From assembly GCA_950295325.1 (NCBI GenBank), contig OX485805.1, forward strand, positions 21,067,501-21,131,500: a DNA stretch of 64,000 nucleotides. The letters run 5' to 3'. Origin of the DNA: Polytrichum commune. Its lineage: Eukaryota > Streptophyta > Polytrichopsida > Polytrichales > Polytrichaceae. The notes below the pieces were generated by a model that was not told the DNA's origin, did no database searches, and saw only the letters and a list, made by a program, of their open reading frames with translations. The position numbers were made by a program, and so were the translations under genes. Shown here one piece after another: positions 10,672-56,141 of this stretch. Numbering within the stretch: position 1 is the stretch's first letter; the number at the start of each line of letters is the position of its first letter.

Positions 10672-11320
10672 AATAATACCACGGGTAGATCACTCTAAGG
10701 CATTTTTGTGCACCACGTGCGGCTGGGGGTTTTTTTTTGTTTTGGGGCTATTTACCTTCAAGGGATGAATTAAAGCCTCCCTATAATTACTTAAATTTAA
10801 AAAATGGCCCATTTGTTTGCACCCTTCCATTACTTATATTGTCCAAGTCATTGCAATTTTTTGTACTCTATATTCCTTTTAAGTAATAAAAACTAATCTG
10901 CTTCCTAACGCAATTGATGAGTGTTGAGGGAAAGCATGGAAACAAAGAAGGGTACAAACAGTAATACCATTGAAACAGAGTTATGAAGAAAATACATTGG
11001 AGGCCATAGCAAAGTAATACCATTGCAAACACTATTATGATGAAAACACATAGGAGATGCCAACACAAACACCACATAGGACGTGCCAGCAACATACCTT
11101 CTAGGATCCTTATCTTCAACCCCTATATTAATTTTACAAAAAATAATGGCCCATGTTTTATGTCCATCTAACTTACTTATAATGGGATTGTCTACATTTA
11201 ATGGCCCCTTCATTATTTGGAATTCCTTTATAATTTTTATTTCAAATGATTTTAATCCTCTCTATATTATGCCGCACGTCATTTTCAAAATGCACTAAGT
11301 GATCTACCCGTGAATAATAC
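10672..11320. mobile_element. hAT-like MITE, copy A
   Basis: The element is 10680-11312 (633 bp). It is flanked by a perfect 8-bp duplication AATAATAC (10672-10679 and 11313-11320). Its ends are inverted repeats: CACGGGTAGATCACT at the left and its complement at the right, with further matching (GCATTTT, ACGTGCGGC) over roughly 35-40 bp. An 8-bp duplication with CA..TG-type termini fits the hAT superfamily. The open frames on the minus strand (10868-11213) show no transposase features, so it is non-autonomous. Copy B, in the opposite orientation, splits a retrotransposon at 27.2-27.7 kb. Confidence 0.88.
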
Positions 11321-25399: not shown

Positions 25400-26340
25400 C
25401 AGCTGTGTGTACCTCAATTAGGGGATTACCAAATACATGATGATTTACTATGTAATCTAATCTTCCATTTTGTTTGGAATCGTTGTGTGGGTGTTTTGTA
25501 GCATGTATTCCTTGCTTTGTAGTGAATGCAACTTGCAATAAGGGTATGTGATTAGGAGAAGGTCTTGCATTATAGTTGATGCAACTTCAATACCGAGCCT
25601 TGCATTTTTTATCATTATGTTTCATCATATTATCTGATTTCAGAATTACAAAATACCATCAATGTGTATTGCAAGGCACTATGTAAGGTAAAGTTTCTTT
25701 CTTTTGGTTTAGTATTTTGAAAGTCTTTGGTAAGTTTAGATATGATATGATTGAGCTTATGGCATTGAACTATTGGTAGGGTATTAAGCTTGAGCCTTGA
25801 GCCAATGTTAAGCCTTGAAGTCCTCAATACAATCTGCCCACCACAAGAACCAACAAGCATAGGGTATTGTCACAACAAGAAGTGGAGTTAGATGGTTGAT
25901 TCTTAATTGTTTACATTATATTAGAAACATGTATCATATAACTCACGCACAAGTTTAATATGAGTTTCGTATTTCATTTCTATATTCTTAGATTAACGTC
26001 TTGACTTTGAACAAGCCTTTCAACTGAAGGACTGAAATTTGAAAGCCCTTCAAAATGAAATTCATATGAGGGCTTCAATCTTGAACACTGAAGACGAAGC
26101 CAATATCAAAAACCGATCATGCCAGGATCAACAAATCACGTGAGCTTATGATCAGAAAGTGAACCTGACCATCAGAAGAAGAAGAACTCCGATCCCGACT
26201 AGGGGGGCCGGAGTGAATAAAGTGTATGTTCGTAGGACATCCGTGGCCATACCCCAGGGTAGTGGCGTTGGATGTAATACTACTTCACCCTTTGCAGGGA
26301 GTAGACACTATGTTAGTAACTAGGGGTTTTACCAGTTAAC
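25400..26340. other. AT-rich stretch, nothing recognised
   Basis: I see no gene, bounded element or conserved frame. Just before 26342 begins an 11-base G run at the 3' end of the retrotransposon relic. Confidence 0.4.
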
Positions 26341-26381
26341 TGGGGGGGGGGGTGTTGGGTTCATAATTTTTATTTTTATTT

Positions 26382-27163
26382 TTAATTATAATTTTGTAAG
26401 TATGTGATGGGTTGTCTATTTTCTATCCGTCTTTTATGGATTAATATTGAGTGTGCGTATTGTATGGCGATTATATTGATTTGTTTGAACGTGCTTCTAA
26501 TTTGTGATGTAGGGAGTTTAAGCTTTGTTTCGAGTTCGTTCATTGAGGGGATGTGAGTTGTGGCTCTGGCACCTGATGCTAATACTATAAGTGGGGCTAC
26601 GTTCCAGCCTCTTGCTATTATATTGTTGATGAGTGGTTGATATTTTGTAATTTTCCGTTCTCTTGTTTCAGCAGAGAATCTATCATTACAGTATGTGAAT
26701 TCAATGAATTGTATAGTAATTTCTGGTGTAGGTGCTTCTGGTGGTGGAGAGTTGTATGGATGGCCTAAGATGCATATTATGTCGGGTTTGAGCCTGGTGT
26801 TACAGTGACATCTTTGGGTATCGCATGTGCATGGTAGTAACCATGTTGGTACTGTGTTTTCTTGGGGTAGTTCATTGTATGTGCCTGCATTCATAAGTAT
26901 GTAGTGTCTTGTTACTTTGTTTGAGACGAGAAGCTTGCATATTTCCCATACTGCTTTGTTATGTCTATTTGTTATGAGTGCGTGGATGTGTTGTTGTTTA
27001 TATTTTAGGAGTACATGTAGCCATGTATCTGCTTCTAGTGAGTTACAAATAGGACATGTATGGGATGGATATGCGTTTCTACCAAAGAAGAGTTGTTTCC
27101 GAGCATATCCCATATATTGTCTGGTCCGAAATTTTATTAAGCATGTTTTTTGTCTATCTATAA
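26382..27163 (-). pseudogene. Non-LTR retrotransposon 3' end: zinc knuckle plus PD-(D/E)XK-like endonuclease
   Basis: This is the C-terminal part of the same reading frame that begins beyond the inserted MITE; authentic element sequence starts at the PVIIDRQKT stretch. Numbering from the first Met of the frame (27185), there is a CPIC-x9-H knuckle (Cys44, Cys47, His57) with its last Cys apparently lost, an RHN motif at 74-76, then KPD (Asp135), EFT (Glu162) and RKITKY (Lys178, Lys181). In restriction-like endonuclease (RLE) retrotransposons, a C-C-H-C knuckle, an R-H-N motif and a PD...(D/E)-x-(K/T)...K-x-x-K-Y endonuclease follow one another in this order; the domain nicks target DNA to prime reverse transcription. 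The frame is open to its own stop, with a short A/T-rich tail after it. There is no reverse transcriptase in the window. Confidence 0.7.
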
Positions 27164-27738
27164 TGACTGGGCACGGGTAGGTCACTTAGTGCATTTAAAA
27201 AACGACGTGCGGCATAATATAGAGAGGATTAAAATCATTTGAAATAAAAATTATAAGGAATTCCAAATAATGAAGGGGCCATTAAATGTAGACAATCCCA
27301 TTATAAGTAAGTTAGATGGACATAAACTGTGGGGCATTATTTTTTTGTAAAATTAATATAGGGGCTGAAGATAAGGATCCTAGAAGGTATGTTTAGTATG
27401 TTTGCTATGGTCTCCTATGTGTTTTCTTCATAACTTTGTTTGCAATGATATTACTGTTTGCACCCTTCTTTGTTTCCATGGTTTCCCTTAACACTCGTCA
27501 ATGCGTTAGGAAGTAGATTAGATTTTATTACTTAAAAGGAATATAGAGTACAACAATTGCAATGACTTGGACAATATAAGTAATGGAAGGGTGCAAACAA
27601 ATGGGCCATTTTTGAAATTTAAGTAATTATAGGGAGGCTTTAATTCAGCCCTTGAAGGTAAATAGCCCCAAAACAAAAAACCCCCAGCCGCACGTGGTGC
27701 ACAAAAATGCCTTAGAGTGACCTACCCGTGTGACTGGG
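27164..27738. mobile_element. hAT-like MITE, copy B, inside the retrotransposon
   Basis: The element is 27172-27730 (559 bp), flanked by a perfect 8-bp duplication TGACTGGG (27164-27171 and 27731-27738). Its ends, CACGGGTAGGTCACT and complement, match copy A at 10.7-11.3 kb, in the opposite orientation. It lies inside the coding frame of the non-LTR element. The host reading frame keeps phase across the site if the MITE and one copy of the duplication are ignored, so the target frame was probably open when it landed. Confidence 0.92.
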
Positions 27739-28620
27739 TTGTTCCAAAAGTCATTTGATAATGTTTTGTCGATGTCTTTGTTGTCTAACCATTTGTGTAA
27801 TTGGTGTGTTTGGGTTGCTATGAGGGCTAGGTTATGTTTTTTGTCATATTTAATGATGTATTTACCCAGGTGTCGGATGGGGCCTTTGTCTGGTGTTTCT
27901 TGCATTGAGTGCCACCAACCTTTTTGGAGGTAGTATGGCGTGGGGTGTGCATATTCATATGTTGCTATGGCATCTCTGTGGCTTAGTTCACATCGCCTTT
28001 TGGCTAATTTGTCCGCTTGTTCATTGCCACTTATATTCGTGTGGCCTTTGACTTTATGTAGTGAGGTAATTTGTGTACGGGATTGTAACATCGTAATTAT
28101 TGATTCAAGTATTTTCTTGTCTGGGTGACTCTTGTGTGAGGTTGGGTGTTTTGTTTGTGTGTTTAGGAGGTATAAAACATTAAGACAGTCTGTGAAAATA
28201 TGGGCTGGTTCATTTCGGTATGTAGTAGTGAGGAGGCATAGAGTGTGATGGATAGCCATCAGGTTCTGCTCGTAGTATATTTTGGAGTCCTGGTAGTCTT
28301 TCTGCAATTTTAAGGTTTTTAAAAGGGTTATATATGCCATATCCTGCCTTTTCTCGTCTCCAATGTTCTTGGGTTATTGCTTTGGGTGGTATAAATGACC
28401 CATCGGTATAGTAGCAAAATTGCGGTGGGTATTTGAGGGGTAGGCATATGTTATGATTTGTGATTGGTAGTTTGGGTCGGGGGTGGGGGGGGGGCGGATA
28501 TGTGAGTTGAGACCAGTTCTTACTGCAGTTAACTGAGGTGTTTATTGGTGTGGGTGGTGCAGTTGTGTTAAAGATAGTGGGTATTTGTAAAGATTTGCCA
28601 ATAGTGTACATGCGATGTAT
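27739..28620 (-). pseudogene. Non-LTR retrotransposon: RNase H domain
   Basis: Two overlapping minus frames, 28611-28210 and 28340-27645 (its last part is MITE sequence), together hold a type I RNase H. YTDGS carries the first Asp (28402-28404), LRAE the Glu (28264-28266), FTDCLNVLYLL the second Asp (28188-28190), and KGH-x9-D the terminal His/Asp pair (28041-28043 and 28011-28013). The change of frame falls near 28255-28268, right after the catalytic Glu, so one small deletion broke the gene there. RNase H removes RNA from the RNA/DNA hybrid during reverse transcription. The element stops abruptly near 28620 with no reverse transcriptase upstream, as expected of a 5'-truncated target-primed copy. 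Downstream in the same protein come the zinc knuckle and endonuclease. Confidence 0.8.
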
Positions 28621-28649
28621 GTATCCTGTTGGTTCGATGGGTGTAATTT

Positions 28650-30820
28650 CCTAACGTCACGGCTTGACCATCAAAGAAGATCAAACCCAGCCTGCAAACT
28701 TGTGCATCTGAGCATGAAGCCTAATATCAAGCAACATGCACACCCGAAACCAACATCAAAGCTTGCAACTGATTCACTTCAAAAGTCGACATCTGAACTA
28801 CAAAACGACGCACCTAAGCATCAATAAGTCAGCATCTAAACCTGGAGGTGACTCTTAACATACATGCTTTGGCAAGTAACAAATGAGCAAGCATGCAAGA
28901 GAACATCTATGCACATGTTTGGTAATTAGCTCATACCCATAGGACAGCATGACACGGCTTCAAATTCAATATACATGTTACCTACATTCTATCCAGATTG
29001 ATCTCCAGACTTGAGTTCCTCAATTCCAAGAACGATGTGTTTCCTGTATATGTTTCCTTGAGAGGGTTACAACGTTAACTAACAAAGCTTTATCAGCCCC
29101 CCCCCCCCCCCTCCTCTTTCCCAAAAGGGCCTACAGAGCCCTTGTTATTTGTTACTAAGAGGGACGAGTGATTGGGGAGATTTTTGGGCATAATGGGTTC
29201 AGATTCTAGTGTTTGCAAGTCCAACCGGTTACATGTTGACATCCTTCGGTTTTTTCTATATTAATTTGAGGTATATTCCATAGGTTTCTCTAAAGTGATC
29301 AGTAATTCTCTTGAAGTCCTGAACTTCAACTGGTTATTTCTCAAACTCAACCGGTTCATCTGTAACTAACTGTCGGTTTTCTCTGATCATAGATAGGGAC
29401 CACCTCCAACAGGATGTGCGTTCGCAACATATTCTTAAGACCACCTATATACAAGATTATTTTTGTAAAATCAAGGGATACACGTACAATTTTAATGAAA
29501 AAAATACAAGTAACAATATGTTTATGTAAACTAAATTACATTCATCTATAGTCGTTAACATAAGCATACAAATATACATTTGTCTAATGATGAACCCCTG
29601 TCATATGTATAATGTAGAACCCTAGCATTCCTTAATAAAGTTATTGAAGGTGCTTTCATCCCTTGGTTGTAACTCATAAGCATTTGAGTTTATAATATCT
29701 ATCATAGAAGCTAATGCAATCCTTGATTCTGAAGCTACCATCAAATAATCCGCAATGTATGTCAATAGATTGTAGGGTTCTTATCTTGTAATGGTTTTTC
29801 TAGTCAAGTAAGATTGAATGTCCATAAATATCCAAACTTTTGTTGGAAAATTATGATATTTATTGGACCATTTTCATGGTTTTTATTTTACAACTCGTTC
29901 AAGGATTTTATTCTCATTTGATTCATCTTCTATGACCAAACAATTGTTAAAGCTATAAAATTACATTTCTCACATTTAATTATGTTTCTTATTTTGTAAG
30001 TTTATTATTGTCTCTTTGTTGTAGATGGATACTAATGATTTTTCCAACCTCTTGGCTCTTAATGTTAAGTTGCGTTATGATTTATTAGACTTTTATATCA
30101 ACTCCACTTCTTCTCACATGAAAGTGAATGTAATTTGACTAATCATATGTTTGATTCAAAATCATTAGTTGAGAGCTTTTGTTTTCAATGCTCTTGAAAG
30201 TCAAGGTTCTCTATTCCTTTATTTTATTTGTGATTTATGCATTTAGTTCAGCCCACTTTGATATCAGATGTCCTAAATTTGGAGCAAAGCTTTATTCATT
30301 AGTATGTATATATATATATAGAAAAAACATATAAAAACCTTAAATGTCACCTCAAAGTTGATAGATTTTTGGAGTGTGCACTAAAAAAAATAATGAAGAA
30401 TTCAATGATTTTTGAAACAAAATAAGGATCTCAAAATCTTCATGTGCAAAATATTTTGGGTTTGGATAGAAAATCATTGTTTGCAAAATGGAGATTGGTT
30501 ATTGATAAAGTACATTATGGAAAGGTAAATTAAAACATTTAAGTGGACTTCATATTGTTAAATTCATCCTCTTATACTGATGTACTACACATTGAAATGC
30601 ATGACCTCAATATATGATTTTTTAAAATATGATTTTTATTTTTTATTTTTTATTTTTTTATTTTTACTTACTTGCTATATATTCAAATTTTAATTGAATG
30701 TATATTGATTGTCTTGGTCTTGTTGAACATTCTCACTTGAAAACCAATCTTGCTGATCAACCAATTTTCTTTATCAATTGAATTGGGTGCAAGTTAAGGA
30801 TTATTTATTGGAGTGTTTAT
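28650..30820. other. AT-rich stretch, nothing recognised
   Basis: It holds a 15-base C run (29097-29111), several CAACCGGTT-like words (29220-29370) and TTTTTA-rich low-complexity DNA near 30620-30665. No gene or bounded element was recognised. Confidence 0.4.
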
Positions 30821-32196: not shown

Positions 32197-34078
32197 CTTG
32201 GTGTGAGCCCAAAATGATGCCCACATGTGGTGATTAACTCTTCGAAACCAATTTTAGTTTGACTTTGATGTGTTATGATTATTCACAAAACATAAAAAGA
32301 GTGAAGTGTGGTTTGGATTTAAGTTTAGGCTTTAGAATGTGTTGGGTGGTTATTTCAAGGGTTAAGTCCAATAGGATAATGCCTTGATTATGTGAGTAGG
32401 GGGTAAGGTGAGGCAAGGTGAGCTCCACGGGTTAAATGCCCACTTTTGGATCCACCTTGGTAGTTTAGGAAGAAGGAAGCTTGGTGGAAGGGGATTAGTC
32501 CCTACTTTGAAGGTGAGGGTTAAGGGATTGTGATTGGAGGTGCTAATCCTCTCACCCTATCCTCACCTCTCTCTCCCTCTCTCCCTCTTTGCTACTTAAG
32601 GTGTTTTCTCTCTCATTTTCCTCTCTCTCCATCAAGTGCTCTCAAGGGAGCAAGCTCTTAGGAGCTTGAGCCACGTGGGTGGGTTATTAGTTTTTAGCAA
32701 AGTTAAGTAGTAAGCCCTCTCTCTCAAGCCTTATCAAGGGAGATGAGCTTTTAGAGCTTGGGGCCACGTGTGTGGATTAGTTAATGATGTTAGGTAATTA
32801 GTTAGCTTATTAGCCAAAGGATAGAAGAGTTAGCACTTGTCCGATTAAGCATCTTGAGGGGATTACAATTAAGAGTGTAGTTAAAAGGCTCGCATGTGGG
32901 CCTTTGAGCAAGTAAGGGATTAGGTGGTTATGGTGGATTTTAGTTCGGCTTGATAGAGCCTAAGTTGAGACTAAGGAAGCCTGGAACGGTTGGACTGTGG
33001 CTAACTCGGGGACTAAGCCTGGAACGGCTGGACTGTGGCTAACTGGTGGAGTAAGCCTGGAGCTGCTGGACTGTGGCTAACTCGGTGGAGCTAAGCCTGG
33101 AATGGCTGGACTGTGGCTAACTCGGGGACTAAGCCTGGAACGGCTGGACTGTGGCTAATTGGTGGAGTAAGCCTGGAGCTGCTGGACTGTGGCTAACTCG
33201 GTGGAGCTAAGCCTGGAGCGGCTGGACTGTGGCTAACTCGGTGGAGTAAGCCTGGAGCGGCTGGACTGTGGCTAACTCGGTGGAGCTAAGCCTGGAGCGG
33301 CTGGACTGTGGCTAACTCGGTGGAGCTAAGCCTGGAACGGCTGGACTGTGGCTAACTGGTGGACTAAGCCTGGAACGGCTGGACTGTGGCTAACTCGGGG
33401 ACTAAGCCTGGAACGGCTGGACTGTGGCTAACCGGTGGAGCTAAGCCTGGAGCTGCTGGACTGTGGCTAACTCGGTGGAGCTAAGCCTTGAGCTGCCGAA
33501 AGGGGATCGATATGAGAGGGCATTAGAAGCCGGTTAATTAGGGGACCTAACCACATCGTATTAACCTTAGAAGCTAGTTAAGGCTGGTCCTAAATAACCA
33601 TACATTAGTATCCCTAGAAACCATTACATTAGGTGTTTAGAGTTGTAATGCAAGCCAAGTAGTTAAAAGCATTAGTTTATATAGGATCACGTGTGGCCTC
33701 AAAGGCAAGTGTAATTGTGATTAACCATTGAGGGAGTGTTTTTCAACACTTACGTCCTTTTTGGGAAACTCACTCACTTATGAAAATGGATAAAGTGGAA
33801 GACTCTAGCAGGGGCAATGTGGAGGAAAGGATAATCAAAGGCCAAAGGGGAATATCCCTAAGAGCTTGTGTTGCCAAGGCCGCCGGTTGGACCCTAGAGA
33901 AGGCCAACGCGACCACGAGCCAAGAGGCTACTTCTAAATAAACAAAGTGATTTAAAATGATGTGAATGCTTAAGGATGTGACGAGATCAATTTTCATGCT
34001 ACATACACTACATGTGATTCTCAAGACCATCACCCGGACTAGGACGCTTAAGGGTGGTGGGTTTGGCCTCACACTTGG
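32197..34078 (+). mobile_element. Solo LTR 1 (1872 bp)
   Basis: The element 32202-34073 begins TGTGAGCCCAAAATGATGCC and ends GTTTGGCCTCACA, giving TG...CA termini. It is flanked by the perfect 5-bp duplication CTTGG (32197-32201 and 34074-34078). Solo LTR 2 starts TGTGAGCGCGATTTCGTGCC and ends with a related block; both share CACCCGGACTA-GAC then TAAGGGTGG before the end. No internal direct repeat of the ends was found and no retroviral-type genes are present, so it reads as a recombined solo LTR of a large-LTR family. It contains CT-rich DNA, duplicated GGAGCTTG/CCACGTG blocks (about 32650-32770) and the minisatellite below. Confidence 0.82.
32975..33500 (+). repeat. Minisatellite of about 40-bp units, 13 copies, inside solo LTR 1
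   Basis: Thirteen units plus one partial follow the pattern TAAGCCTGGA-(ACGG/GCTG/GCGG)-CTGGACTGTGG-CTAACT-(C)GG-GGA. The first six form two rounds of a three-unit pattern (aacgg/ggggact, aacgg/ggtggagt, agctg/cggtggagct), a small higher-order repeat; later units are more uniform. There are no spacers of unique sequence, so this is not a CRISPR array. It is much more GC-rich than its surroundings. Confidence 0.93.
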
Positions 34079-38469: not shown

Positions 38470-39672
38470 TTAGCTCGGGGCGTTCACACCCCTTACGTTT
38501 TGTAACCACGTGCGATAATGGGGTATTTATGCACCTTTCAATACGTTTTCCTTTCCTATTCGTAGATAAAAACCTACATTGACGTATTTTTAGCACTCTA
38601 TGTTTATTTGTAATTTTTTAGAGAGGCTAAAATTTGGCACAATGTTTTTTTAATAAATCATACAACTACCAAATAGTGGACGGACTACTATAGCATTGCG
38701 AAACCAACTATGTGAGCAACAAACATTCCATACTATTCAAATTGTCATTCATTTGGTTTTAATTAATAATACAAATTCTAAAACATTCAAAATACAACCA
38801 ATAGCACTTGATTACTAGTTAAAGAGTTACCAACAAACATGGAGTTAACAAAGTATACAAACTGAAATAGACAAGTTGTAAAATACAGACGAACAAAACA
38901 AGAATTACAACCAATTGTGATTTGACATGAAATTGTGCACAACTACCTACTCCAAAACAAGGTTGTATTCAAATACAAGAAACCTAAATACAAAAAATTA
39001 AAAACATTTACTTTAATTACGTTCACAAACACATTCAACTATAATCCCATTCAAACCTCGTAACAAACATTTACAACCTAATCCCTAAACCAAACACATG
39101 CGGAAAACATTGCAAAGTGGCCACTATGTACCATCAATCTGCATGAAAGAAACCCTAGAAAAAACGTGAGCTTGACGATCAAGGATTGAGGTTGTGACAA
39201 AATCTAAATTGATTGTAGGAAACGATTGAGGGTAATAGTGGAGGTTGTCAGGTTCTAAGCATCTAGCAAGATCCCACATGTTCAACACCGTTGCAAAACC
39301 CAACAACCGTTGAGAAGCACCAACACATTCCGTCTCTCAAAATAAACCCACAACATTTCCCTTCATACTAACGCGCTTGGTTCAAATTTGGACAAAAACT
39401 ACACACTTCCTCATCCAAGTAGTCAAACCCATAATTATGTCTACTAATCCTACTACACACTTTTAGTGGGATCCTATGTTTATAACCTTCTTTAGTATTA
39501 TTAAAATGAAGGAATTATCCACCACCCTATTTTACATATAATCATGTAGGGGTCATATTTCCAATGATATAGTAGATCTAACGAAATTATAAAATTTACC
39601 CTAAATGAATTAAATTGAGCTTATTTCTTTTATCTCACATGGTTTTCTAAAATTCCGATATTCACCTCCCCA
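38470..39672 (+). repeat. Unclassified 1.2-kb repeat, longer copy
   Basis: From TTCACACCCCTTACGTTTTG and GTAACCACGTGCGATAATGG through CGTTGAG-AGCACCA, AGTAGTCAAACCCATAA and TACACACTTTTAG to TTTTCTAAAATTCCGATA, this region matches 55312-56141 in order and orientation. The shorter copy lacks about 38883-39243. On the minus strand both copies keep a short conserved reading (YGFDYL-EEVCS-CPNLN), and this copy has a 60-codon frame at 39124-39306, so a decayed gene is possible. Neither terminal inverted repeats nor LTRs could be defined. Confidence 0.7.
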
Positions 39673-47472: not shown

Positions 47473-47952
47473 TCAACCATGACCAAAGCATATTAAAAGA
47501 TTGTGGTGATAACTACATGTACACCACATGCTTGATGGTAGTTTTACACTTAGGGTAATGAACAAGGGTAGTGGACTTAGTGAGCCTATGGGCTCCCCTA
47601 AACAACAGTTGGAATGCCTTGGTCCAAACAAAAATTCTTCATTTCCCCATGTAAGATGTAGGAAGAGGGTGTTGACCTCCTCGATGTAGCTCTTTTGGTT
47701 CATGGTGATGGTATGGGCTTCTCTATTTCTCTCAAATTTCACTCCTATGTAATAATGCAACTCTTCGAGATCACTCATCTTAAATTCTTTCTCGAACTCC
47801 AATATGAACCACTTCAATTGGGATACATTGCTTGCCAATATGATCAAATCATCCACGTAGAGGATTGTAACCAACAAACATTCACCCAATTGTTTGACGT
47901 ATAGCGAATGATCCACTTGGCTCTTACAAATGCCCTCTTTGATGAAAAGCAA
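47473..47952 (-). pseudogene. Ty1/copia reverse transcriptase, palm with YVDD
   Basis: The frame reads KSQVDHSLYVKQLGE, then ILYVDDLIILAS, then EFKMSDLEELHYYIGVKFER and SYIEEV. This is the copia RVT_2 core: YVDD holds two catalytic Asp residues, followed by the -M-DLG-L-YFLG region. The end of the frame (after about residue 110) departs from the family, so the 3' part, including RNase H, is lost. It follows on the same strand from the fragments at 48.1-49.3 kb. Confidence 0.9.
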
Positions 47953-48062
47953 ATCAATACGGTGGCTCCATGCCCTTGGTAATTATTTGAGTCCATACAA
48001 AGCCTTCTTGAATCTATACACAATGTGGTCATTCCCCTCTTGTACAAAACCCTCCAATTGAT

Positions 48063-48473
48063 CTATGTAGGTCTCCACCTCCAATACTTCATTGACAAAC
48101 GTTGTTTTATGTCCATATAGTAGATCTCCCAATCTATGGCCGCTCTTATTGCAATAACACAACTAATGATGATAAATTTGGCCACTGGGACAAAAGTCTC
48201 GTTGAAATCCACTCCGGCTACTTCATAATCTCCTTTTGCTACTAACCACACCTTACACCTAATAATTTCATCTGGTGCATCCCTCTTGGTGGGGAACACC
48301 CATTTGCATCCTACACTCTTGTGATCCTTTGGAAGGTTGGTTGATTCCCACATGCCATTGGCCATAAGCGAATTGTACTCTTCTTGCATTGCGGCCTCCC
48401 ACTTGCTCGTATATTTGGATCTCAACGCTTTGCACAATTTCAAAGGATCATCCAAAAATGTCACATTGGCCAA
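48063..48473 (-). pseudogene. Ty1/copia reverse transcriptase, N-terminal part
   Basis: It reads W-AAMQEEYNSLMANG-W, LPKDHKSVGCKWVFPTKRD, RCKVWLVAKGDYEVAGVDFN, ETFVPVAK and YYMDIKQ. This is the canonical opening of copia RVT_2 (A...E...L..N.TW, I--KWVFK-K, KARLVAKG--Q--G-DY-ETF-PV, QMDVK-AFL), with substitutions at several conserved places. A frame change separates it from the YVDD fragment. Confidence 0.9.
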
Positions 48474-48778
48474 TTCTTCGTTGTGTTGGGGTAGAATGTG
48501 ATTCTTCCACCATTTCCGGGCGGGCGCTGCTCCTTTTTAAGATATCTTCTATCTTTGTTGAATTTCTCATCGTGGCCGTCATTCTCTACGAGTATTTTGA
48601 TTGCTTCCTCATTTGCAACCAAGTAATCTTCCACTTGCTCCCCGCGGTCATCACCGTCATCACACGAAGATGATTTGGAAGATTTATCCACAACAACCAC
48701 CGTAGGGCCTTTATTTTTTCCACTCGGACGCCTCCCCAAATTGCTTCCAACGCTCATGCTATCTTTCATAAATACCAC
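48461..48778 (-). pseudogene. Ty1/copia linker between integrase and reverse transcriptase
   Basis: The frame has an acidic and Lys/Ser-rich composition (SSKSSSCDDGDDRGEQVEDY) and overlaps the start of the reverse transcriptase fragment. Position and composition suit the variable linker of copia polyproteins; there is no domain to name. Confidence 0.6.
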
Positions 48779-51349: not shown

Positions 51350-52490
51350 ATATTAGTGAATTTTATGATCATGCGTGGATATGTTGAATCATCTCCTCAA
51401 CAAAGGCCGAAGCAGTGGTGGTGGTGTTGTTGTTGTTTGTTGGCGTGCAGTGTTTGGGAGAGGTGGGTGGACCATGTTAAAGTGGCATGTCATATGTACA
51501 GGTGCACATGATTGGGATTGCATGGGCCCAAACTAATTGTGGTACAAGTGTTAAATTTCAAATAATTGTATGCATTAATTTAAGAGTTGTGACAATTTAG
51601 ATCCTCTAGAATTAAGGACTAGAACTATCTCAAGATATTCTCTTTACATGATTATTTGTAATAATTTCAGAAGTAGATTCTTCCTTTAATGTTGGGACCA
51701 TTGTTTGTTGTCTTTTTTTTTTTTAAGGTTTTAATGTTTTCAATCGTACCCAATGGGTGAAATAATGTTCATTGGATGCACACAAACTTCAAGCACATAA
51801 TATGATTTTATGGATAGACTCTTATTGGAGTTTTGGCATGTTGAAGGAAGTCAAATACGATATCTATTGCAACTCAAAATTGAAGCAAAATGATATTTTT
51901 TACATCCTCATCCACCATACTTGAATTTTCTCATGCGGTGTCGGGTAGAGAGGGTTCCGTCTTAGGAAAGCACTGGGCTTTTGGCTGCAACTAGATTTGT
52001 TTGTCGGACCGTCGAATATCTGATCTTCAAGAGTCTCGGTCTTTAGTTTCTTCAAATCTTCAAACTATTTCCCGTCGGCCTATCCTGTTGCGACTCTAAA
52101 TGGGTTAAGGGTAAGGGTAGGGTGATAAGAAACCACAGGCCTCGAATGGGTAAAATGGGATGTCAGAACACGAGCTGACGTCCGAAAGATTGGCTCCTAA
52201 ACTTTCAAACCCACAGTGACCAACAATCGTGCCTCACCAATGGGAACAACAGAAAACAACCTTGTGGGTCATCAATCCCACTTCGTTGTCACAAACATGA
52301 AACGGGCTTTTATGGATTCCCACAAAACCCGCAACAAATTTACGATGCAAAAAAATCAAATGCGACTAGCCTCCAAATCCGGCTGGGAATCACAGAAAGG
52401 ACAACGAACCACAAGGTTGAATCTTGAGAAGTTTTCAAGTCTTCAAATCTTCATATGAACGCCAAATTGAGCGAATGAGATCTTTACAGA
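51350..52490. other. AT-rich stretch, nothing recognised
   Basis: No gene or bounded element was recognised. A GGTGGTGGTGTTGTTGTT run lies near 51417-51438. Confidence 0.4.
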
Positions 52491-52500
52491 AAGCTAACAA

Positions 52501-52880
52501 TAAGGGCCGGTTTACACTACGGTGGAGAAGTCCACCGGTCATGAAAAAAAGGGCGTTTCTCGATTGTGATTGGTCAAAAATGCAACTCTTGACCGGTGGG
52601 TGTTTACACTAGGTGAAGAAAACAATGGTGGTGAACTTTTCTCATGGATGATAAAATGACATGGCCGCCTACATGGCGGCACTTTTTGGAGTTGGGCTTC
52701 TCCGGAGGAAGAGTTTCTTGTCCGGCCTCAAGAGGCCGGAGAAGCCCAACTCAATAAAAATATTTTATTGCCATTAATTCTTCTCCGGCACATCCACCAT
52801 TTGCCTCATATAACCATGTCTTGGCCAAGCATTCTTGACCGACCGGAGGCCTTCTCCACCGTAGTGTAAACCGGCCCTAA
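52501..52880. mobile_element. PIF/Harbinger-type MITE with near-perfect ends
   Basis: The element 52504-52877 (374 bp) lies between TAA repeats (52501-52503, 52878-52880). The inverted ends match over GGGCCGGTTTACACTACGGT and GGAGAAG with no mismatch, then diverge partly around CACCGGTC. A secondary copy of the end motif lies at 52608-52618. The centre has a 17-bp perfect inverted repeat (52689-52705 with 52736-52752) whose loop holds a second palindrome (52722-52739). The end sequence is distinct from the 0.3- and 11.5-kb MITEs beyond GGGCC. Confidence 0.88.
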
Positions 52881-52884
52881 GTAC

Positions 52885-53695
52885 TACACTTCCTCAAAGT
52901 TTCGTTGCAAACAAAAGACATGTCCGTCTTTTATGGTCGGTCGAAGTCTCAGCCCTTCTTTATAAGAGCCAACAGACCTCCCTGCACTCAAACTAACACA
53001 AATTTTAATTGCTAACTTCAAATCAAGCAAGTGAGATCACTCTAGAGAAACAACACCATGAAACACAACTCCATCATATTTTATTTCAATATTCCCATAA
53101 ACTCACACCCATGAGCTTCAAAAAAAAAGAAACCCTCTTCTCCTCACCAACTTCTTCTCTACAACAACCTCTTCTCTACCACCACACAAAAAATGAGAGA
53201 GAGAAAGTCCCCTTTTTATTCTCATCACATGGGCTTCTAATCACCCGTTTGGTCTAAAAGTAAACTAAGAATAAAACAAAAAATAAGACTAAAAGGGTAA
53301 ACTAAGAGTAACTAAGAATAAACTAAGAATAAACCAAGAAAAACTATTTCTATTCCCTTTTACTTTCCTCCAAATCAAAGAATCGTAATGTAATACTAAA
53401 TAAGTACACATCTATATAGTGTACGTATTCACATTACGACAGCAGACCAAAACGTCCTCGTAGACATGTACAAATAAATTTACGAAGGCACCAACATATG
53501 CTTTATGACCTTTGCAATAGTTGAGATGAATCCCCATAAGTATTGAAGTAACTTTAACTTAAGCTTAGAAATTGCAACTATACACTAGACATATATACGG
53601 TCACATGTATCACAATCGTCCTAGAGAGTTTACATAACCAACAGAGGAAGTGAAAATATGGTCTCAAGTACACGTAACTATCTTAGAGATCGTTA
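52885..53695. other. AT-rich stretch, nothing recognised
   Basis: AACTAAGAATAAA-type words repeat at 53255-53340. The frame 53009-53257 has no recognisable feature. Confidence 0.4.
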
Positions 53696-55311: not shown

Positions 55312-56141
55312 TTGAAAGCTCCTCAGGGCAATCACACCCCTTTACATTTTGTAACCATGTGCGATAATGGGGTATTTATGTGCCTCTCAATATTGTTTTT
55401 CCTCCTTATTTATAGATAAAAAACTACTTTGACTTATTCTCTAGCACCTTATATTTATTTGTAATTATTTAGAGGCTAATTTTTGGCACAGTCTTTTTTA
55501 ATAATAAATTATACAAGTACCAAATAGTGGACCGAATACTACAGCACTGCAAAATCGACTATGTGAGCAACAAACATTCCATAGCATTCAAATTGTCATT
55601 CATTTGGTTTTAATTAATAAATTCAATCCTAAATCATTCAAAACACAACCAATTGCACTTAAAACTAGTTGAAGGGTTACCAATAAACATAGAGATAGCA
55701 AAATATACAAGTTGAAATAGACAAGCATCTAGCGAGGTCCCACATGTTCATCATCCTTGCAAAACCCAATAGCCGTTGAGGAGCACCATCATATTCCTGC
55801 CCCCCAAAAAAATCCCACAACATTTCCCTCCATACTAGCACACTTTATTCAAATTTGGACAAAGACTACACACTTCTTCATTCAAGTAGTCAAACCCATA
55901 ACTATTCTACTAATCCTACTACACACTTTTAGGGGGATCCTATGTCTATGACCCTGGTTTTTCCTATTGGTTACTAAAATGGAGGCATTATCCATCACCA
56001 TGTTTTACATGTAATCATGTAGGGGACGTATTTCCAATGTTGTGGTAGATCTGACAAAATTATAAAATTTACCTTAAACGAATTAAATTGACCATTTTTT
56101 TTTTTAATCTCATGAGGTTTTCTAAAATCCCGATAGTCACC
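55312..56141 (+). repeat. Unclassified 1.2-kb repeat, deleted copy
   Basis: It matches 38470-39672 throughout except for an internal loss of about 360 bp at the junction AAATAGACAAG|CATCTAGC (near 55727), where AAG microhomology marks the break. Divergence over the shared parts is modest. Confidence 0.75.

Follow-up and report, generated by a model that had tools for sequence, protein, structure and literature searches.

A probable Dualen-type LINE family in the moss Polytrichum commune, with a PCIF1-like domain and StopGo/2A-like motifs

The Dualen/RandI elements are described as LINEs that combine an APE and a restriction-like endonuclease (RLE) within one element (PMC3636483, PMC4640811). 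Passages of the latter paper also report an RNase H in them and say that they link the RLE and the APE LINEs, and their 3' tails in green algae are given as (ATT)n or (CTATTT)n (PMC3747384). Regarding the hosts, a list of 2015 has Dualen/RandI from green algae only (PMC4438587, Table 3), and green algae are also named in passages of PMC8226300 and PMC3747384. The label LINE/Dualen has been used in cryptophytes (PMC12747079) and, as a RepeatModeler label, in the apicomplexan Besnoitia (PMC9714946); the passages on Dualen in PMC3636483, PMC4640811, PMC5753468 and PMC4455052 name no host. In the open-access literature searched we found nothing on Dualen-type elements in mosses, and likewise no paper for Polytrichum.

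Here we analysed a stretch of 64,000 nucleotides of Polytrichum commune (the window), where a first-pass annotation had proposed the Dualen/RandI combination for a minus-strand element. The parent genome comprises 407.8 Mb in 64 contigs, of which C1-C7 total around 406 Mb. LEAFY domains are present in it (the SAM part at 4 places, the C-domain as 6 pieces at three loci) and therefore the genome is that of a streptophyte, as had been supposed; the LEAFY sequence, like the seven large contigs, would suit a moss.

The LINE copy occupies window positions 26174-28664 on the minus strand, with its 3' end at 26174. It is a dead copy, the relic of a large plant retrotransposon, being 5'-truncated, frameshifted and split by a 559-bp MITE. 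Its limits follow from the homology to another copy, L010 (26174-28649, interrupted at the MITE and within the 3' UTR), from the end of the tail and from a target-site duplication (TSD) just outside. This TSD, TGACCATCA on the plus strand, lies at 28665-28673 on the 5' side and at 26166-26174 on the 3' side, where its last base is common to the tail; at 9 bp it could be a chance match, but it sits at the edge of the homology. The window copy has neither APE nor RT because its 5' start comes after the Pfam-matched part of a PCIF1-like domain, and the PCIF1-like and 2A parts described below are absent from it.

What remains, all on the minus strand, begins with the end of a linker and the first RNase H part, with the first Asp and the Glu (28213-28650, frame 1). 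A second RNase H part follows with Asp, His and Asp, together with the next linker, whose last codons enter the MITE (27648-28373). This second part matches PF00075 (E 5.7e-9, above the cut-off) and the D..E..D..H..D residues align with those of the other copies, so the type I RNase H that had been read here is supported; nevertheless, it is split over two frames, and since the first Asp and the Glu lie in the other one, the window RNase H is frameshifted. The segment 26385-27170, which reaches the end of ORF2, holds a CxxC..H knuckle, RHN, KPD, EFT and KITKY, with the spacing KPD..E-x15-KxxKY. These are the motifs named by the first-pass annotation, which had also proposed a CCH(C) knuckle; the knuckle is indeed there, but its fourth Cys has been lost (C to Y). 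Besides the motif test, this segment is delimited by its identity to other copies, 84-90% to 7 of them and 67-77% to 4. Finally, a 3' UTR hairpin was placed by folding at 26187-26213 and a (TTC)n tail at 26174-26186.

When the RLE-like piece was compared with the genome, 144 places were scored (from 5296 first-look candidates), 67-100% identical and including the window copy itself. We analysed 16 stretches, 15 of them extended upstream, with the window copy as L001. Eight copies have 12.25-13.54 kb between the target duplications, and a ninth, L018, has 9.9 kb. One of them, L013, measures 12,447 bp and has TGTCATTGGGTAGA on each side; it shares 99.0% identity with L016 across 12,423 bp, from which we infer recent activity. 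None of the copies fetched has both ORF1 and ORF2 uninterrupted. L009, in which ORF2 is a single frame, is not intact either, as a stop precedes that frame and its ORF1 and ORF2 are separated by a Copia-like frame; the latter, named by eye, is open over 1463 aa in L009/L025 (genome C2). Elsewhere in the genome there are open frames of 2600-2900 aa with a match to PF12237, the Pfam family of the PCIF1-like domain (e.g. C4:34924404 and C1:40948585), which mark further copies, possibly intact ones. Scans of viral and genome contig collections with a few short peptide patterns found no relatives.

In the fuller copies the order of ORF2 is a leader, one to three StopGo/2A-like motifs, APE, RT, a PCIF1/CAPAM-like domain, RNase H, the knuckle and the RLE-like domain. 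The 2169-aa ORF2 frame of L009 has PF14529 at 162-290, PF00078 at 659-925, PF12237 at 1410-1525 and PF00075 at 1681-1823, and then the knuckle and the RLE-like domain. Thus the layout on which the Dualen/RandI proposal depended is found in one frame, with a reverse transcriptase (E 2.5e-26) and, upstream of it, an APE (E 5.3e-7, over the cut-off). The RNase H, between the RT and the RLE-like domain, matches with E 8.3e-15 and is of the D-E-D-H-D type, with the His kept. HMM support is weaker for the APE than for the RT. L009 is the sole passer among the three proteins holding the APE region; PF03372 stayed under its cut-off in L009 and L024, L024 was also under the cut-off of PF14529, and L017 had no Pfam match there. 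TIGR00633 reached E 2.4e-7 in L009, under its cut-off, and the PDB profile search gave an E of only 0.0048. The motifs QETK, YMP, FNR and NSDHxP are invariant in the 9 aligned copies, and the GD of the GDFN motif is altered in L017 and L024.

Between L009 and the other subfamilies, dN/dS (Nei-Gojobori) was 0.09-0.15 for the APE, 0.05-0.06 for the RT, 0.10-0.16 for the PCIF1-like domain, 0.06-0.15 for the RNase H and 0.07-0.13 for the RLE-like domain; five pairs gave no ratio, as dS was saturated. These values, about 0.05-0.16, point to purifying selection between subfamilies on each of the five ORF2 domains examined. Higher ratios appeared in close pairs, namely 0.27 for the APE of L009/L017, and 0.37 and 0.43 for the PCIF1-like domain and the RNase H of L022/L024.

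The element ends in a hairpin and (TTC)n, not in poly(A). The hairpin folds in each of 4 copies examined (z -2.8 to -4.7, the window copy -2.8) and both-side changes occur at 2 of its 11 pairs among 8 sequences. A 32-base pattern taken from the 3' end, allowing up to 2 mismatches, was found at 92 places genome-wide (52 exact), while the same pattern read backwards was found at none. Target duplications of 9-14 bp flank 10 of the 20 distinct tailed copies, all at unrelated sites; six of them follow a G and nine start with T, possibly shared with the tail. No TSD was found in L002, L004, L006, L007, L008, L009, L017 and L021, those from L002 to L008 reaching only around 1.5 kb upstream, and 9-mer candidates for L010 and L023 were dropped as they are located inside the element. 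L003, L005, L019 and L020 have no 3' tail. Short TSDs at unrelated sites and a TTC tail agree with target-primed reverse transcription in which the tail forms short T:A pairs and no single site is targeted.

The element resembles Dualen/RandI in having an APE upstream of the RT, an RNase H between the RT and the RLE-like domain, and a microsatellite 3' tail instead of poly(A). It differs in its streptophyte host, its (TTC)n tail, and the 2A-like motifs and PCIF1-like domain that go unmentioned in the cited passages on Dualen. An alternative is that it is a LINE of the R2 group (R2, NeSL, HERO, CRE, Utopia), and no relative of Dualen, that gained APE and RNase H independently. The C-terminal knuckle and RLE motifs are shared with that group, and R2 proteins are the best solved matches of the RT: R2Tg and the R2 proteins 9nl2/9nl3 scored 89-97 bits, although R2Bm, at 63 bits, did no better than L1 (about 60-63). 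However, the element has an APE, and an RNase H after the RT; its layout and microsatellite tail agree with the published descriptions of Dualen/RandI cited above, and its 10 copies with TSDs lie at ten different, unrelated sites, unlike the site-specific R2. We consider an R2-group origin unlikely.

Regarding the C-terminal domain, the KPD..E..K..KY core was found in 21 of the 1488 ORFs (60 aa or longer) from the window and the loci, all 21 being copies of the element (the window copy is counted twice, from the window and as L001); it is absent from L006, L008, L021 and L024. In 20000 shuffles of the L009 domain the core appeared 5 times, the knuckle 102 times and the knuckle with RHN never. 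The KxxKY spacing is near that of R2Bm (E-x15-K in the element vs D-x16-K). Whereas the RNase H matched its HMM, the RLE-like domain matched none: searches against Pfam, NCBIfam, PDB sequences and with hhalign gave no match, the comparison of its profile with the R2 endonuclease was negative, and Smith-Waterman local alignments of 12 copies to the R2Bm endonuclease gave z from 0.2 to 3.3. A SwaI-like assignment (PF22081) was rejected; its best E was 0.091, in 3 of 12 members, and it covered residues 16-67, outside the RLE core. From the order of the motifs, the KxxKY spacing, the shuffles, the dN/dS and the place after RNase H and knuckle, we judge it likely that this domain is an RLE, so that the fuller copies would carry one DNA-cutting domain, the APE, and a probable second one. 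The first-pass annotation had suspected something further after the Glu/Lys motifs. The stretch after KITKY is 85 aa in L009, close in length to the 79 aa after KY in the R2Bm fragment, so nothing points to an additional domain.

The lack of any HMM, PDB or profile match for the RLE-like domain, together with the presence of an APE, would also suit a plant L1-type LINE with RNase H, in which the C-terminal knuckle domain is just a nucleic-acid-binding tail and no nuclease. Plant L1 elements with an archaeal-like RNase H are indeed plant LINEs with an N-terminal APE and a C-terminal RNase H. Nevertheless, KPD..E..KxxKY, CCHC and RHN are all there and kept at a dN/dS of 0.07-0.13, and the RNase H has its His, in place of which Arg is reported for the archaeal-like RNase H of plant L1 elements and of Utopia in oomycetes (PMC4640811). 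The tail is (TTC)n and not poly(A); poly(A) is also missing in some plant L1 (PMC3747384, Table 3). Furthermore, the RT profile ranks R2Tg and 9nl2/9nl3 over L1, and the PCIF1-like and RLE-like domains are additional to the L1 plan. Such an L1-type origin seems to us distinctly improbable.

The domain between RT and RNase H is like PCIF1/CAPAM, the cap m6Am methyltransferase. All 11 members of its alignment match PF12237 (best E 1.4e-11), and genome-wide the 150 places scored for this family, from 697 first-look candidates, are all over the curated cut-off. Thirty of the 150 lie in open frames of 1003-2924 aa, and several share their frame length with a nearby RLE-like match (e.g. C6:28571239 and C6:28572742, 1788 aa). 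With E values up to 10 admitted, the PDB profile search gave 5 matches, headed by two PCIF1 chains (E 4.8e-4 and 0.04); the other three are unrelated chains at E 0.085 or weaker. The Pfam name of PF12237 refers to a WW domain; we take the aligned stretch to be the methyltransferase part, just before NPPF, the catalytic motif of PCIF1. It is very improbable that the match is a chance or compositional one in a linker, for although the best PDB E is just 4.8e-4 and the alignment ends before the NPPF region, every member and every scored place matches PF12237, two separate PCIF1 stretches align collinearly, and dN/dS between subfamilies is 0.10-0.16.

The element's domain differs from PCIF1/CAPAM in being embedded in ORF2 and, apparently, in having AHPH for NPPF. 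By eye, AHPH stands at the expected NPPF position in 10 of the 11 members, with AHLH in L019. Since this replacement apparently falls on the NPPF place, the domain is more likely to bind, perhaps to the RT complex or to the capped end of the RNA, than to methylate. In the open-access literature searched we found no report joining PCIF1 with a non-LTR retrotransposon or a retrotransposon domain architecture.

Upstream of the APE, at least one StopGo/2A-like motif was present in all 15 extended copies, and three in L009 only. By the criterion (D/G/C/N)(V/I)ExNPGP, or variants shown active, we counted 26 motifs: 7 canonical (in 7 copies), 11 with p14=H (in 10 copies), 2 with p16=H and 6 with p14=Q. 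Ten copies have GDIHPNPGP as their last motif, whereas L019 and L020 have GDIEPNPGP there and L022 and L024 have GDIEPHPGP; L012 lacks it. A loose regular expression (any p14, N or H at p16) found 26 in 142 ORFs vs 0 in 200 shuffles, the copies being related and not independent. In a 2026 survey, natural variants with p14=H or p16=H are reported as more than 95% active and older E14Q mutants as having 56% or 26% activity (PMC12846837); the six p14=Q motifs, being of the latter type, would count against a working 2A. An in-frame 2A ahead of the enzyme domains is also reported for L1Tc and sea-urchin LINEs (PMC4981915); by comparison, the moss element has up to three motifs (in L009 only), many with p14=H, and a plant host, where other cases are possible.

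Among the 16 loci searched, 7 have ATGAATAG, in which an ORF1-frame stop overlaps the ORF2 start. In L010, L014, L015 and L017 this stop closes a long ORF1 frame of 382-853 codons; the frame has 165 codons in L023, and in L012 and L018 just 15 open codons come before it. In the pieces scanned, ORF1 has no Pfam family near its cut-off, and two RRM-like stretches were seen by eye only. Hydrophobic stretches in the leader of ORF2 were calculated from a single copy, L017.

Taken together, the window copy is likely to be the relic of a Dualen-type, dual-endonuclease family of non-LTR retrotransposons in a streptophyte, and the PCIF1-like domain and the 2A motifs, many with the rare p14=H, are unexpected additions to the Dualen/RandI architecture. 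On balance we lean towards a wider reading, in which a streptophyte branch of dual-endonuclease LINEs captured a PCIF1/CAPAM-like domain, its catalytic motif replaced and its fold kept by selection, that handles the capped RNA 5' end, and in which natural StopGo/2A motifs, many of them rare p14=H/p16=H forms, free the enzyme from a hydrophobic leader. ORF2 would be translated by stop/start reinitiation, and the last 2A would release the part from APE to RLE. The enzyme would then recognise the 3' hairpin, one nuclease would nick the target, and the TTC-repeat tail would anneal through a few T:A pairs. The RT could in this way copy the element by target-primed reverse transcription, RNase H would remove the template RNA, and a second cut by the other nuclease would generate the duplications of 9-14 bp.

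With recent copies (99.0% identity across 12.4 kb), a streptophyte branch would extend the range of Dualen/RandI and offer material to ask which nuclease does which cut. If the wider reading is true, there would be natural 2A use in a plant, which matters because plant viruses yielded no natural StopGo in the 2026 survey (PMC12846837). It would also mean an RNA-cap-enzyme fold within a retrotransposon polyprotein, and the PCIF1-like domain would be cargo of a type new to LINEs.

The MITE that separates the two window ORFs of the LINE copy lies at 27172-27730, with 15-bp inverted ends (CACGGGTAGGTCACT) and the 8-bp TSD TGACTGGG on each side. A second copy is found at 10680-11312 with AATAATAC on each side; the two are mutually inverted, have the TIR CACGGGTAGRTCACT and are each flanked by a perfect 8-bp TSD, a length from which we presume that they are hAT-like. 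Other features of the window are fragments of a Copia-type reverse transcriptase (PF07727) at 47476-48536 on the minus strand, and a diverged tandem repeat at 32936-33496 with a unit of around 39-40 bp (AAGCCTGGA..GGCTGGACTGTGGCTAACT). Direct repeat sets of stretches, 83-89% identical and around 16.5-16.9 kb apart, lie at 38489-39641 and 55338-56114. Genome-wide, Self-incomp_S1 (PF05938) had 40 matches, several of them clustered on C5 and C6. Finally, an inverted-repeat pair at 52482-52899, with 59-bp arms that are 80% complementary and 300 bp between them, looks like another small DNA transposon.
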